Assembly: GCA_945868725.1 (NCBI GenBank)
Contig: CAMBMU010000004.1
Span: 1 to 63,783 of the forward strand
Reading direction: 5' to 3'
DNA length: 63,783 nt
From: Spirosoma fluviale
GTDB lineage: Bacteria; Bacteroidota; Bacteroidia; Cytophagales; Cyclobacteriaceae
The position numbers and the translations under genes were made by a program. Below, in pieces: positions 14,071 to 63,347 of this stretch (its first letter is position 1; every line of letters begins with the position of its first letter). The notes under the pieces were generated by a model. It was not told the DNA's origin and did no database searches. It worked only from the letters and a program-made list of their open reading frames with translations.

Positions 14071-14123
14071 GTACGAATTAACAAGTACGATGTACCAGGT
14101 ACCAAGTACAATGTACTTTGTGC
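14071..14123. repeat. GTAC heptad array A
   Basis: GTAC starts at 14071, 14085, 14092, 14099, 14106 and 14113, with GTGC at 14120: every start is a multiple of 7 bp from the first, with one register position (14078) lost. Spacer triplets are GAA, GAT, CAG, CAA, AAT and TTT. AGA at 7-bp spacing follows at 14143-14152. Confidence 0.9.
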
Positions 14124-14150
14124 CAGGATCCATCTTGAGGCAAGAAACAA

Positions 14151-14365
14151 GACTAGTGGAAGACCTTTCTATTCCTTTGCGTCCTGCCTGCCTACGGTAG
14201 GTAGGTCTGCCGACAGGCAGGCTCTGCGTCTTTGCGAGAATAAAAAAATAAGGCGCGCAAAGCCGCCAAGGCCTGCCTACCTCAGGTAGGTGTCTTGCAT
14301 CTAAAAAGAGTTTAGAGACAAGAATTTCGGGAAACGAGATACAAGAGCCAAGAAATTAGAAGCAA
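14151..14365. repeat. 215-bp direct repeat, copy 1
   Basis: The unit runs from GACTAGTGGAAGACC to AGAAGCAA. It includes CTTTGCG-type motifs, a 39-bp nested palindrome (14183-14221), a 19-bp palindrome CCTGCCTACCTCAGGTAGG (14272-14290), and AGA at 7-bp period in its right third (G at 14308, 14315, 14322, then 14338, 14345, 14352, 14359). Copy 2 differs at only a few bases. Confidence 0.92.
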
Positions 14366-14383
14366 CTGCCTGCGGTAGGCAGG
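14365..14383. repeat. 19-bp palindrome between the two 215-bp copies
   Basis: ACTGCCTGCGGTAGGCAGG, one base off the 19-mer found at 62871-62889. It separates the two direct repeats. Unlike the two cases near 62.8 kb, the AGA register is only partly kept across it. Confidence 0.75.
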
Positions 14384-14388
14384 TGAGA

Positions 14389-14604
14389 GATTAGTGGAAG
14401 ACCTTTCTATTTCTTTGCGTCCTGCCTGCCTACGGTAGGTAGGTCTGCCGACAGGCAGGCTCTGCGTCTTTGCGAGAATAAAAAAAATAAGGCGCGCAAA
14501 GCCGCCAAGGCCTGCCTACCTCAGGTAGGTGTCTTGCATCTAAAAAGAGATTAGAGACAAGAATTTTGGGAAACGAGATACAAGAGCCAAGAAATTAGAA
14601 GCAA
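14389..14604. repeat. 215-bp direct repeat, copy 2
   Basis: Near-identical to 14151-14365, with one extra A in the A-run after TTTGCGAGAAT. It has the same 39-bp palindrome (14421-14459) and 19-bp palindrome (14511-14529). The high identity in non-coding DNA implies a recent duplication or ongoing conversion. Confidence 0.92.
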
Positions 14605-14613
14605 TAGTCAAAA

Positions 14614-14640
14614 AAAATCCTGCTCAATAAGCAGGATTTT
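14614..14640. terminator. Hairpin with terminator shape
   Basis: AAAATCCTGCT, 5-nt loop, AGCAGGATTTT: an 11-bp perfect stem flanked by A and T runs on both strands, so it could end transcription in either direction. It lies about 270 bp after the GH109-like gene's stop on the minus strand, so assignment to a gene is uncertain. Confidence 0.5.
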
Positions 14641-14663
14641 CGTTTTGGTAGAAATAAGTCTAA

Positions 14664-14702
14664 CCTGCCTGCCTACGGTAGGTAGGTCTGCCGACAGGCA
14701 GG
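14664..14702. repeat. 39-bp nested palindrome, third copy
   Basis: Same 39 bp as at 14183-14221 and 14421-14459, here outside the direct repeat. It can be read as a 19-bp unit (CCTGCCTACGGTAGGTAGG) lying inside a 20-bp palindrome (CCTGTCTGCCGACAGGCAGG). Confidence 0.85.
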
Positions 14703-14720
14703 TCTCTTCCCTCTTGAAAA

Positions 14721-14751
14721 GAGATTAGAGACAAGAAACAAGAAATTAGAG
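14721..14751. repeat. AGA heptad array
   Basis: The G of AGA falls at 14721, 14728, 14735, 14742 and 14749, an exact 7-bp period, with variable bases between. Confidence 0.8.
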
Positions 14752-14879
14752 CAAGTTCTGTTGGGCAAAAAAGCCTGCTACTGGCATAATCTCCAGTTTC
14801 CCCACTTCAAAATTCTTCACTCGGCGTTGGATATTCTACATTGGTAAAAATCCCGTATTTCGCCTGCATTCACAGGCAG

Positions 14880-14911
14880 GTACCTCGTACTTGGTACTTA
14901 GTACTTAGTAC
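14880..14911. repeat. GTAC heptad array B
   Basis: Five GTAC at 14880, 14887, 14894, 14901 and 14908, with spacers CTC, TTG, TTA and TTA. These triplets are largely reverse complements of those in arrays A and C, so B is in the opposite orientation. It ends 6 bp from the stop codon of the GH109-like gene. Confidence 0.9.
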
Positions 14912-60595: not shown

Positions 60596-61619
60596 GTTTT
60601 TTTCTTGGTCTTGGTTTTTGCCAGAGACGTTTCAATCCTATGAATGGGAAAACCCATTACTTTTGAATTTACTGTGGTTGATTCCTTTATTGGTGTTAAT
60701 TCGAAAGTTTATCAAATTCCTCAAAAAACCAGTCCTTGAGCTATCCTTACCGAAGAGTGTAGCCAAAGCCAACCCTTGGACCTACCTCCGTTTGATTCCA
60801 ACTGGCTTTTTCTTTCTATTTCTAATATTTGTAGTTCTTGCATTGGCCAGACCTCAACGGAACAATGAGCGGGTAGAACAATATACTGAGGGGATTGATA
60901 TTTTGTTGGTCATGGATATTTCTGAATCCATGGACTTACAAGATTTTAGTCCCAATAGACTGGAAGCTGCCAAAAAAACTGCAGTGGAATTCATCAATGG
61001 CCGATTTGGAGACCGAATTGGAATGGTTGTCTTTTCAGGTGAGGCCTATTCGCTTTCTCCATTGACCAACGATTACCAATTGCTTACTAGCTTGATTGAA
61101 GAGATCAATTTCTCCATGATCGAAGCCAAGGGGACTGCGATAGGGTCGGCAATAGCTGCAGGAACCAACCGCATGAAGGACAGTGAATCTCCTTCTAAGG
61201 TGATGATTCTTTTGTCTGATGGAGAAAGCAATGCAGGCAATGTTGACCCTATTTTTGCTGCTCAACTGGCAACAGCATTTGGTATAAAAATCTATACCAT
61301 TGCTGTAGGAAAAGATGGAATGGTACCCTATGGAACTGATTTTTTCGGCAGACCACAAATGGTAGAGAGTTACCTAGACGAAAGCACCCTACGAGAGATT
61401 TCCACCATTGGGGGCGGGCAATTTTTTAGAGCCTCGGAAGGAAAGGCCTTGAATCAAATCTTCGAACAAATTGACACCCTCGAAAAAACAGAGATTCTTG
61501 AGAATCGATATAAGGAAACCGCTGATTTTTATAGGATATACTTATTCTGGGGAATGCTGTTTTTTGTGATTTGGATGGCTTTGAAGAGCAGTTTCTTCAA
61601 TAATTTCCTACTCGACTAA
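60576..61619 (+). CDS. VWA-domain protein BatA-like
   Basis: 347 residues. Membrane spans at about 28-46 and 66-92 precede a von Willebrand A domain with an intact MIDAS: DISESMDLQ (DxSxS), Thr in AKGTAIG, and Asp in LLSDGESNAGN. A last span (about 325-345) ends it. This is the BatA layout of the aerotolerance operon. It overlaps the upstream gene by 20 bp. batB, batC and batE do not follow; alkB is convergent with a 12-bp overlap. Confidence 0.87.
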   Translation: MRESLVEFFSWSWFLPETFQSYEWENPLLLNLLWLIPLLVLIRKFIKFLKKPVLELSLPKSVAKANPWTYLRLIPTGFFFLFLIFVVLALARPQRNNERVEQYTEGIDILLVMDISESMDLQDFSPNRLEAAKKTAVEFINGRFGDRIGMVVFSGEAYSLSPLTNDYQLLTSLIEEINFSMIEAKGTAIGSAIAAGTNRMKDSESPSKVMILLSDGESNAGNVDPIFAAQLATAFGIKIYTIAVGKDGMVPYGTDFFGRPQMVESYLDESTLREISTIGGGQFFRASEGKALNQIFEQIDTLEKTEILENRYKETADFYRIYLFWGMLFFVIWMALKSSFFNNFLLD

Positions 61620-62690
61620 TTCAATATTCCGTTCTTTTTGCCAGTCCGATAGTCGAGGATCCATCACAGAAAACCAGAGCGGAGGAATACAAGCCAAGAT
61701 AATCATTGCTGAATATCCTGCAGGCAATTGGGGACTATCCTCGTTGTGATCTAATACCTGATACCTCTTGTGTGCAGAAGCATGGTGGTCGGAATGGCGT
61801 TGCAACTGAAAAAGGAGAAAATTACTCACCAATTGAGAGGCGTTCCAAGAATGAAGGGGGGTTACTTTTTCGTACTGTCCTGAAGGCAATTGCTTTCGTT
61901 GCATTCCATAATGCTCTAAGTAGTTCACTAACTCCAAAAGTGAAAACCCTAAAATACTTTGAACAAAAAAGAAGGCGGGAACTTCCCAAACCAATCTTCC
62001 TTGAGCGTAAGAAAATAGACCAAAAAAGAAGGCGACGAATAGCAGAGGTAGGATTTGAAACCAAATCATTTGATTGGAAAGAGACCAGAAGCCTTGGCCT
62101 TTCTTTTTCAGACGTTCTGTCTCTAAATGCCAAGAACTGAGGTAACCCTGAGTAACAGATCGCCACCAGAATGCATAGAAAGTCTCTCCTTTTCGACTTG
62201 TAGCTGGATCCTCAGGAGTGGCTACGCGTACATGATGTCCTCGGTTGTGTTCGATAAAAAAGTGCATGTAGCAGACAGTCATCAAGAGAATCTTGGAATA
62301 GATCTGTTCTACCTTTTCGGTTCGATGACCCAACTCATGTGCCACAGTAATGCCGATGCCACCAGTTATCAGAGCCATTCCGGTAGCAAAGGCAATCCAG
62401 GAGATCAAAGACAATTCCTGTGTACTCACCACATAGAAACCCCAGATCAGCACTGCCAATTGTACATAAACCCAAACAAAGGTAATCAGCTTGTAAAATT
62501 GAGCCTTCATAGATTCGCTCACTTCAGCTACTGGAATATTGGCTTTATCCTTTTGAATCACATAATCCATTAGGGGAACAAGCAAGAAAACAAAGACATG
62601 AATCATCCATAGGAAGGGGCCTCCCCACTGCATTCCCAAAAAGAGTAGTGTAGGCAGAATCAGTGCACTAAAGAATCCGATTTTTTTCAT
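61608..62690 (-). CDS. alkB: Alkane 1-monooxygenase (AlkB-type integral membrane di-iron enzyme)
   Basis: 360 residues. Six membrane spans and the histidine boxes of the AlkB group are all present: HELGHR (box 1), EHNRGHHVRVATPEDPA (box 2), LQRHSDHHA (box 3), and the extra NYLEHYGMQR motif that separates AlkB from fatty-acid desaturases. It would hydroxylate terminal carbons of alkanes or related chains using O2 and a rubredoxin. No rubredoxin or reductase gene is nearby. It is a single gene, with a repeat island and an rRNA operon upstream. Confidence 0.92.
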   Translation of the reverse strand: MKKIGFFSALILPTLLFLGMQWGGPFLWMIHVFVFLLVPLMDYVIQKDKANIPVAEVSESMKAQFYKLITFVWVYVQLAVLIWGFYVVSTQELSLISWIAFATGMALITGGIGITVAHELGHRTEKVEQIYSKILLMTVCYMHFFIEHNRGHHVRVATPEDPATSRKGETFYAFWWRSVTQGYLSSWHLETERLKKKGQGFWSLSNQMIWFQILPLLFVAFFFGLFSYAQGRLVWEVPAFFFVQSILGFSLLELVNYLEHYGMQRKQLPSGQYEKVTPLHSWNASQLVSNFLLFQLQRHSDHHASAHKRYQVLDHNEDSPQLPAGYSAMIILACIPPLWFSVMDPRLSDWQKERNIELVE

Positions 62691-62766
62691 GTCTTTTAAA
62701 AACCTGTAAACATCCTAAAAAGTTATGAATTAGTCGCAAAAAAAACAATTGGAAGTAGCAAGAACT

Positions 62767-62805
62767 GTACGAAGTACAATGTACGAGGTACGAAGTACCA
62801 AGTAG
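62767..62805. repeat. GTAC heptad array C
   Basis: GTAC at 62767, 62774, 62781, 62788 and 62795, with GTAG at 62802: exact 7-bp period. Spacers are GAA, AAT, GAG, GAA and CAA. It runs on into an AGA array. Confidence 0.92.
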
Positions 62806-62810
62806 ACTCA

Positions 62811-62852
62811 GATGCGTGCCTGCGGTAGGCAGGCAAGAGACGAGAACAAAGA
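62811..62852. repeat. AGA heptad array interrupted by a palindrome
   Basis: The G of AGA falls at 62811, then 62837, 62844 and 62851. The 26-bp step equals 7 plus 19, and a 19-bp palindrome occupies the gap, so the register is kept once the palindrome is removed. Confidence 0.85.
62815..62833. repeat. 19-bp palindrome CGTGCCTGCGGTAGGCAGG
   Basis: One base different from the copy at 62871-62889. It is followed by CAAG, as is that copy. Removing it joins GATG to CAAGAG, giving GATGCAAGA, a string that occurs uninterrupted at 63170-63178. Confidence 0.85.
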
Positions 62853-62859
62853 CTTCATT

Positions 62860-62910
62860 GTACTAGGTACCCTGCCTGCGGTAGGCAGGCAAGTACAATG
62901 TACAAAGTAG
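62860..62910. repeat. GTAC heptad array D, interrupted
   Basis: GTAC at 62860 and 62867, then 62893 and 62900, with GTAG at 62907. The central step of 26 bp is 7 plus 19 and contains the palindrome at 62871-62889. Without it the sequence would read GTACCAAGTAC in perfect phase, a string found intact in arrays A and C. Confidence 0.92.
62871..62889. repeat. 19-bp palindrome CCTGCCTGCGGTAGGCAGG
   Basis: Imperfect palindrome (CCTGCCT / AGGCAGG arms, 5-nt centre) standing exactly between GTAC and CAAGTAC of the heptad array. No target duplication is evident. Confidence 0.92.
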
Positions 62911-62914
62911 ACTC

Positions 62915-62945
62915 AGAAGCAAGAATCGAGAGACAAGAAACGAGA
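62915..62945. repeat. AGA heptad array
   Basis: The G of AGA falls at 62916, 62923, 62930, 62937 and 62944, exact 7-bp period, immediately after GTAC array D. Confidence 0.88.
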
Positions 62946-63040
62946 CTCATTGCGTTGTGGTACGAGATTCGTGTGATTCACGAATTTCAACTTCTTCAGT
63001 CTCCAATCGGCGTTCGGCGTTCGACATTAAAAAAAGAAGC
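62937..63040. repeat. ~104-bp direct repeat, copy 1
   Basis: Runs from GAAACGAGACTCA to AAGAAGC. It includes a stem ATTCGTG/CACGAAT (5-nt loop) and TCG at 7-bp period (63007, 63014, 63021). Copy 2 follows after 16 bp. Confidence 0.85.
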
Positions 63041-63056
63041 AGGAGCCGAGAACCAC

Positions 63057-63159
63057 GAAACGAGACTCAATTGCGTTGTGCTACGAGATTCGTTTGGTTT
63101 ACGAATTTTCACTTCTTCATTCTCCAATCGGCGTTCGATATTCGATATTAAAAAGAAGC
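63057..63159. repeat. ~104-bp direct repeat, copy 2
   Basis: About 90 percent identical by eye to copy 1. The stem is kept as ATTCGT/ACGAAT, and TCG again has a 7-bp period (63128, 63135, 63142). A more decayed relative of its right half lies at 14803-14850. Confidence 0.85.
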
Positions 63160-63184
63160 GAGAAACAAGATGCAAGAACCGAGA
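63154..63184. repeat. AGA heptad array
   Basis: The G of AGA falls at 63155, 63162, 63169, 63176 and 63183, exact 7-bp period. Confidence 0.85.
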
Positions 63185-63233
63185 TAAATGCTGCTCCTTA
63201 TTAGCAGGAGTTTCCTAGCGGCAGAATTTAATG

Positions 63234-63264
63234 TCTAATTTCTTGTCTCTTGGCTCTTGGTTCT
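63234..63264. repeat. TCT heptad array (AGA on the minus strand)
   Basis: The C of TCT falls at 63235, 63242, 63249, 63256 and 63263, exact 7-bp period. It is followed by GTAC array E, so on the minus strand the order is GTAC array then AGA array, as at C and D. Confidence 0.88.
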
Positions 63265-63273
63265 AACCGTCTC

Positions 63274-63312
63274 GCACTTCGTACTTTGTTCTTTGTACCT
63301 GGTACTTAGTAC
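63274..63312. repeat. GTAC heptad array E
   Basis: GCAC 63274, GTAC 63281, GTTC 63288, GTAC 63295, 63302 and 63309: exact 7-bp period with two decayed units. Spacers TTC, TTT, CTG and TTA are reverse complements of triplets in arrays A and C. It abuts the rRNA terminator. Confidence 0.9.
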
Positions 63313-63313
63313 A

Positions 63314-63347
63314 ACAAAAAAGCCCTTCGAAACGAATCGAAGGGCTT
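63314..63347 (-). terminator. Rho-independent terminator of the rRNA operon
   Basis: On the minus strand AAGCCCTTCG, 8-nt loop, CGAAGGGCTT, then a T-rich run. It lies 6 bp beyond the 5S 3' end and fits as the end of the rRNA transcript. Confidence 0.9.

Follow-up and report, generated by a model that had tools for sequence, protein, structure and literature searches.

The analysed DNA, here called the window, is a stretch of 63,783 nucleotides and represents contig C4 of a 2.81-Mb Algoriphagus-type MAG that is 82% complete. On its minus strand a gene at 61617-62690 encodes a protein of the fatty-acid-desaturase family (PF00487), the best matches of which in named genomes were from MAGs titled Spirosoma fluviale, Cyclobacteriaceae bacterium, and Algoriphagus sp., followed by Algoriphagus isolates; hence the term Algoriphagus-type genomes. 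This gene adjoins an interval of repeat arrays, and between it and the 5S and 23S rRNA genes lie two 19-mers, CCTGCCTGCGGTAGGCAGG (62871-62889) and CGTGCCTGCGGTAGGCAGG (62815-62833). In array D, GTAC starts at 62860, 62867, 62893, and 62900, while in the neighboring array AGA starts at 62810, 62836, 62843, and 62850, with its G at 62811, 62837, 62844, and 62851. The coordinates of both 19-mers and their 7+19 spacing, as given in the original prediction, were all correct. Its further claim, that excision of either 19-mer restores a string found intact nearby, was accurate for GATGCAAGA, which is joined by removing 19 bp and occurs at 63169, but less so for GTACCAAGTAC, of which exact copies stand at 14099, 14887, and 63572, the last two on the opposite strand, whereas the string of the nearest array (at 62795) reads GTACCAAGTA followed by G.

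In the sister species, inspected by eye, this interval is pieced together from 7-bp arrays (GTACNNN, TCTNNNN, GAANNNN, and TACNNNN) with similar hairpins placed differently. Degenerate arrays of these several kinds also make up the intergenic DNA at 62760-63340 and 14090-14900 of the window and in loci L062-L072, together with 8-bp arrays (GCAAAGNC); the core of such 7- or 8-bp arrays is constant and the remaining bases are drawn from a small set, unlike in simple slippage. At 14183-14686 the window holds a row of near-identical modules with 23-bp palindromes (three copies) and 19-mer variants, and the 23-bp form fits one 19-mer nested in another, as at C51:15787 of the same genome (G000). The features are listed in Table 1.

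TABLE 1 Hairpin units and heptad arrays of the window
Feature	Position	Strand	Basis or remark
19-bp hairpin unit in GTAC heptad array D, CCG-loop strand minus: CTTG^CCTGCCTACCGCAGGCAGG^GTAC	62871..62889	-	Exact copy; G011 ortholog empty by exactly 19 bp
One-base variant of the 19-bp unit, in AGA heptad array	62815..62833	-	Sequence and 7+19 register; G011 copy with other flanks
GTAC heptad array upstream of the unit	62767..62806		GTAC at 62767, 62774, 62781, 62788, 62795
GTAC heptad array D, split by the unit, in register after removal of 19 bp	62860..62906		
AGA heptad array, far side of the 62815 copy	62836..62852		AGA at 62836, 62843, 62850
23-bp CCTGCCTGCCTACGGTAGGTAGG, same family	14183..14205		Resembles nested form at G000:C51:15787 and 16298
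19-mer variant CCTGCCTACCTCAGGTAGG	14272..14290		
19-mer variant ACTGCCTGCGGTAGGCAGG	14365..14383		
23-bp nested-type copy	14421..14443		Repeat of the 14183 module
19-mer variant CCTGCCTACCTCAGGTAGG	14511..14529		
23-bp nested-type copy	14664..14686		

We then determined the abundance of the unit. The pattern CCTGCCTN5AGGCAGG was found in 20 exact copies in the window's own 2.81-Mb genome, against none for the reversed control, and with up to two mismatches it had 14 matches in the window, a number not reached in any of 100 shuffles (mean, 2.04). A search of the same genome with a loop of any length between 1 and 12 nt returned 23 places, of which 20 were 19 bp, two were 20 bp, and one was 17 bp long, so the copies genome-wide are mostly of exactly 19 bp; this search is unbiased for the genome in question, while length counts from the fetched loci are biased because those loci were fetched by the 19-bp pattern. 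The CCG-loop form was present in 40 of the 72 genomes of the genus, with the reversed control at zero in each, and in 34 of 390 genomes of an order-wide sample (controls, 0), 31 of the 34 belonging to the same family as the window. The fetched loci yielded 121 CCG-type copies, which vary mainly at one base: CCTGCCT is followed by G (48 copies), A (42), or T (17) and then by CCGCAGGCAGG, and 14 copies are of rarer forms. Both strands of the three commonest forms fold with a 7- or 8-bp stem, and the folding energy of the hairpin is -10.7 to -13.0 kcal/mol (RNA parameters). A separate 15-bp family (101 contexts) was rejected as mostly an artefact: in a recount of 98, 92 lay inside a 19-mer and 6 did not.

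The sets of copies analysed below comprised all exact CCTGCCTN5AGGCAGG copies from G000, G002, G003, G005-G008, G011-G013, G019, G020, G034, and G035, all listed CCG-type copies from G058, G062, G069, G071, and G078, part of those from G021 (7 of 11), G075 (3 of 4), and G064 (1 of 3), and one each from some other genomes; copies of G088, G090, and G091 entered only where they stood in orthologous loci fetched for C51 or C77, and those of G085 and G087 were left out. None was dropped for short flanks from the set of 142 copies, and one (short flanks or N) was dropped from that of 186. The counts do not represent independent events, as many copies are inherited, and the group preceded by GCGA^ (32 of 186) belongs mainly to a larger carrier element described below.

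Orthologous sites were compared between the own genome and its relatives. In the sister species G011, with the alignment anchored on both sides by the desaturase-family and 5S genes, TGTACTAGGTAC and CAAGTACAATGTACAAAGTA are joined directly where the window has its copy at 62871-62889; a related genome with an empty site, the lack of which was to count against the original prediction, thus exists. For the copy at 62815 no empty ortholog was found, G011 being filled there too, with different flanks. At C51:13379, in an 8-bp array, G091 was empty by exactly 19 bp within long matching flanks; the unit was also absent from G013 and G088, G090 carried a 20-bp variant, one module of G005 had an oppositely orientated unit one octad upstream while the neighboring module was empty, and G008 gave no clean outcome. 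G091 and G007 were likewise short by exactly 19 bp at C77:5898, a weaker site because the agreement of the right flank is limited to CAAGA, after which it diverges; a related 19-mer with a different left flank was found there in G090, and G005, G008, G013, and G088 gave no clean outcome. A graded series was obtained at C51:16298, with no copy in G035 (CTTGGCGGCTTTGCG), one in G005 (CTTGGCGG[CCTGACTGCGGTAGGCAGG]CTTTACG), and two nested copies (38 bp) in the own genome, where the second 19-mer lies within the first, the gaps being 38 bp in G035 and 19 bp in G005; G013 gave no clean outcome. The nested module occurs twice in the own genome (15787 and 16298), and either may be the strict ortholog; C51:15787 was informative in G005 only (19-bp gap). 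C51:2688 gave no clean outcome, and C77:221 gave no alignment.

The orthologous sites empty by exactly 19 bp, together with the series of zero, one, and two nested copies, bear out the proposal of a tiny insertion unit with precise junctions. They also agree with the proposed lack of target duplication, with the caveat that a 19-bp unit without duplication and an 18-bp unit with a 1-nt duplication are indistinguishable where the empty site already holds G/C; at the majority of sites the junction has a G (or, read from the opposite strand, a C). The comparison brought no support at C51:1281, the ortholog of which in G091 (L368) carries a different, 22-bp hairpin, CCTGTCCGCCGCGGCTGACAGG; this could reflect either a hot spot or the change of one hairpin into another.

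A broader excision test was run on 186 distinct copies in 99-nt contexts, identical contexts being merged: after removal of d bases, 18 bases of each flank were joined, and matches of at least 30 of the 36 bases were sought in 1.83 Mb of fetched DNA, ignoring any place that had a hairpin of this kind 25 bp away or less. Removal of 19 bases gave a match for 64 of the 186 copies, many of the matches being paralogous arrays and not strict orthologs, while values of d of 16, 17, and 18 gave 3, 1, and 7 matches and those from 20 to 25 gave 5, 0, 0, 1, 0, and 2. The rise to 14 at d = 26 is expected, because 26 is 19 plus one heptad. A previous run on 142 copies, with a threshold of at least 31 and no filter against self-matches (L021 and L023, removed in the later run), gave 38 of 142 at d = 19, then 1, 0, 0, 0, 0, and 0 at 20 to 25, and 8 at 26. 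Targets outside the arrays were also among the matches, including the dispersed repeat CATTGCGAGG...GACCGAAG^CAATCTC of G021 (L242) and a hairpin array next to a Y1 gene, filled in L304 and empty in L339. The dispersed CATTGCGAGG...GCAATCTC repeat, besides, carries the 19-mer at one shared position, GACC?GAAG^CAATCTC, in L326 (G021) and L342 (G058), and L326 also holds an empty copy of this repeat.

The register of the arrays was assessed in the 142-copy set after removal of the 19 bp. Matching across the junction peaked at a lag of 7 (0.437 versus 0.280 with shuffled flanks; z = 9.8), with further peaks at 14 (z = 10.8), 21 (z = 8.1), and 8 (z = 6.3), the last of which fits the fact that some copies sit in 8-bp arrays. 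In 16 of the 21 copies flanked by GTAC on both sides the GTAC-to-GTAC spacing was a multiple of 7.

When the copies were orientated by the CCG loop (n = 121, the copies not being independent), 70 had G at -1 without C at +1, 12 showed the mirror arrangement, 22 had both, and 17 had neither (P = 4e-11 for 70:12). Among the 112 copies that do not follow GCGA or GCAA, the frequency of G on the CCG-loop strand was 0.82 at the junction, compared with 0.04-0.40 at other offsets within 14 bp, and that of YTNG was 0.35, compared with 0.00-0.23 elsewhere. The 5' tetranucleotides on this strand among 142 copies included CTTG (19), TTCG (14), GCGA (10), and TGCG (10), GTAG occurring once and CGTC never. 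The preference for the CAAG side had been read correctly in so far as CTTG^, its complement, is the commonest array flank, with an orientation ratio of 17:1; more broadly, however, the unit tends to follow a G at -1 of the CCG-loop strand, also in TGCG^ (10:1), TTCG^ (13:6), and AAAG^ (5:3). A bias toward the lagging strand found no support: all six CCG-type copies of G021 lay on one strand, but in several genomes together 23 of 45 orientable copies agreed with the local 20-kb GC skew, a weak proxy of the replication strand (2 of 47 were not orientable and were set aside).

In the larger Algoriphagus genomes many copies of the unit are found at a single site (GCGA^GATTCCAT) within a dispersed element ~115 bp long, which begins with ATGAAATCGAG, ends with AAACAGATGAAA, and is located at gene starts; in several of these genomes the hairpin stands ~37 nt upstream of start codons. 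The unit thus also travels inside the ~115-bp element, which is one reason why its copies are not independent events. Of 40 rows of this element, most of which were fetched because of a filled copy, 28 were filled and 12 were labelled empty, the latter resolving by eye into eight plain empty sites, two stretches of unrelated coding DNA (L170 and L240), and two degenerate fillings (L323 and L237). The element itself (L305-L343 in G062, G069, G078, G021, and G058; L226-L243 in G034, G019, and G021) lies at the start codons of different genes, to which it seems to provide a new 5' leader and start codon, and tandem copies are present. In L311, L312, L304, and L317 its palindrome GATTATAATC is replaced in place by the hairpin CCCCGATGTATCGGGG.

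At 19 nt the unit is far too short to encode a transposase. The statement in the original prediction that no RAYT gene is encoded holds for the window alone; the genome has three Y1_Tnp (HUH/Y1) genes. By eye, the motifs DH[VI]H, WQ, and Y[IV]xNQxxHH were recognized in five Y1 proteins of the own and sister genomes, while in a sixth, from contig C76 of the own genome, the contig end cuts off the last two. The motifs DH[IV]H, WQ, and YIKNQKEHH have been tabulated for subclass 1.2, a group near IS200 TnpA that is found mostly in Cyanobacteria and Bacteroidetes and generally has no typical IS200 ends (PMC6006769). As far as the motifs show, the Y1 transposases of this genome appear to be of this orphan subclass 1.2 type.

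Each Y1 gene of the own genome stands, as judged by eye, amid its own small palindromes with sequences other than the 19-mer. Among 16 Y1 loci scanned the 19-mer was found in none and loose CCTGCC-type hairpins were found in four (L174, L175, L177, and L202), and no Y1 gene among those examined had the 19-mer at both ends. In L225 and L339 a single 19-mer adjoins a Y1 gene inside the gene's own, different hairpin array, and these two look like later insertions. Across 27 genomes at least 90% complete, the element was present in 10 of the 22 in which the C76 protein fragment had a match and in 1 of the 5 in which it had none (Fisher P = 0.62); for a closer C76-type gene (at least 65% identity) the figures were 6 of 10 versus 5 of 17 (P = 0.22; rank test, 0.058), kinship being ignored in both comparisons. 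The C76-type gene was rejected as the specific mover, since the hairpins flanking it in the own genome and G005 are CCTGCC/CCTACC-like and not the 19-mer, and the genome-level association is weak. As a separate observation, the Y1 genes in L035, L036, L037, L175, L225, and L339 stand, by eye, in small-palindrome arrays, the stems of which differ between relatives at the same position (ACCTGCC/GGCAGGT in L037 and ACCTACC/GGTAGGT in L175), forming a covarying REP-like set.

Judged from these sequence comparisons, the 19-bp unit is real, precise, and nestable and almost certainly moves by insertion; its length, its precise junctions, its empty, filled, and nested sites, and the strand bias of its target are seen directly. 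As a whole, the explanation we favor as the probable one is that CCTGCCTNCCGNAGGCAGG is a mobile 19-nt hairpin with an 8-bp or 7-bp stem and a 3- or 5-nt loop, which inserts as 19 bp 3' of a G and is moved in trans by an HUH/Y1 enzyme. The hairpin would be recognized as single-stranded DNA, and an HUH/Y1 single-strand transposase supplied in trans would paste it 3' of the target. Insertion takes place without target duplication (or with an indistinguishable 1 nt) and mostly immediately 3' of G on the CCG-loop strand, often at CTTG^, TTCG^, or TGCG^; many copies are found in the intergenic 7- and 8-bp repeat arrays, and the unit also enters itself, giving nested copies. The best candidates for movers would be the orphan subclass 1.2-type TnpA genes of these genomes. 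We regard the odds on an HUH/Y1 single-strand mechanism as even.

Copying of the hairpin between arrays by replication template switching or gene conversion, with the fold bounding the patch, would require no transposase, and would suit the frequent location of targets in repeat arrays, the fact that most junctions have 1 nt or more (G/C) in common with the unit, and the heavy rearrangement of the surrounding arrays among sister species. Such a process is not expected, however, to yield one patch length at many junctions, including those outside arrays (L242, L304, L306, and L330), an open-ended process does not predict a strong strand bias, and the flanking array bases stay behind instead of being copied along; we consider this origin unlikely. 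Less likely still is an RNA route, in which the hairpin, as a 19-nt RNA, would become part of a second RNA and be reverse-transcribed back. The lack of target duplication agrees with it, as does the fact that the loop-adjacent base varies in such a way that the CGG strand keeps a G-C or G-U pair in most copies, and there is a precedent in that RNA-mediated movement has been suggested for organelle hairpin elements without duplications (PMC2800124) and in part for yeast GC42 (PMC4478555). In 17 of the 121 CCG-type copies, however, T stands opposite C, a mismatch on either strand.

It is very improbable that the ancestor had the filled state and that genomes differ through precise hairpin deletions, even though the deletion of hairpins during replication is a known event: within one locus the filled positions vary from species to species, so the ancestor would have needed all of them, the deletions of 19 bp would have been guided by a direct repeat of ~1 nt at most, and the nested series is most simply read as two insertions. 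A conserved regulatory or terminator structure that does not move has an equally small probability. The unit folds well and, in several larger Algoriphagus genomes, keeps its distance of ~37 nt from start codons, but this position is explained by the larger dispersed carrier element; moreover, the listed 3' flanks have no general T-run, and the hairpin is present in arrays, in other repeats, and within itself.

A more speculative step, which we put forward as doubtful, is that the orphan HUH/Y1 subclass 1.2 proteins may be dedicated movers of bare mini-hairpins, with the cyanobacterial SDRs as the counterpart in another phylum; such a system would then have the 19-bp unit as its minimal transposable substrate. 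By its behavior, the hairpin ranks among the smallest insertion units known. To our knowledge, the precise insertion of units too short to possess transposon ends has been an open question since the cyanobacterial SDRs. The present unit is a second case, from another phylum, and offers a fixed length, a strand bias, sites that are empty, filled, or nested, and a small set of candidate enzymes, all of which makes the question of insertion bench-testable. It also shows that intergenic bacterial DNA can grow by nested micro-insertions. None of five spellings of the hairpin was printed in the literature searched, and there was no report of a 19-mer element among the matches listed for Algoriphagus and Cyclobacteriaceae palindromes and hairpins, cyanobacterial mobile, dispersed, and heptamer repeats, SDR5, Bacteroidetes RAYTs and heptameric repeats, and mitochondrial hairpins.

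Short dispersed repeats (SDR, including SDR5) of Nostoc and Anabaena were reportedly described by Elhai et al. SDR5-like tiny repeats are the closest known kind, since both they and the present unit are dispersed, measure ~20 nt, and show precise insertion into other repeats; in the present unit one length prevails (19 bp in 20 of 23 places), and empty sites reveal the precise insertion. The likeness concerns behavior, as told in citing papers (PMC4390886, PMC2884548, and PMC3116915), one of which describes small dispersed repeats as about 20 bp long and possibly mobile (PMC2884548). The unit differs in belonging to another phylum (Bacteroidota, mostly Cyclobacteriaceae) and in its target, G^ on the CCG-loop strand.

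Like the ends of IS200/IS605 elements, the unit is a hairpin, and TnpA_IS200 relatives of the subclass 1.2 type are present. The bias of 70 versus 12 and the exact 19-bp gaps would fit strand-specific insertion 3' of a short target without target duplication; the target, however, is a loose G^ and not one fixed tetranucleotide, and 12 copies are reversed. The ends of IS200/IS605 and REPs carry a guide tetranucleotide 5' of the hairpin (PMC6006769). No such tetranucleotide occurs within the 19-bp unit, which starts with the stem, 19 nt leaving no room for it, and the unit is a single bare hairpin without an internal transposase. A class II MITE, with its target-site duplication of at least 2 bp, was rejected, as the empty sites differ by exactly 19 bp.

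REP/BIME sequences (RAYT, TnpA_REP) are likewise small, imperfect, and largely intergenic palindromes, and Y1 genes are present in the genome. The tag at the foot of a REP is given as GTAG or CGTC (PMC3733652) or as GT[AG]G (PMC6006769). Movement of the unit as a REP by a RAYT was rejected, since both the tag test (GTAG in 1 and CGTC in 0 of 142 copies) and the flanking test (0 of 16 Y1 loci) failed; unlike a REP, the unit has ~20 copies in its own genome, measures 19 bp, and is not a hairpin that flanks a Y1 gene. The mitochondrial GC42 of yeast, the RHE of sponges, and the double hairpins of Allomyces resemble it in being tiny palindromes that spread through intergenic DNA and merge (PMC4478555 and PMC2800124), although these elements are organellar and GC42, at 42 nt, has a putative target duplication of AG, whereas the 19-bp unit is bacterial and has no (or a 1-nt) duplication. 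Given the failure of the REP tests and a behavior like that of SDR5 and the organelle hairpins, we class the 19-bp unit with the very small mobile hairpin repeats and not with the REPs.
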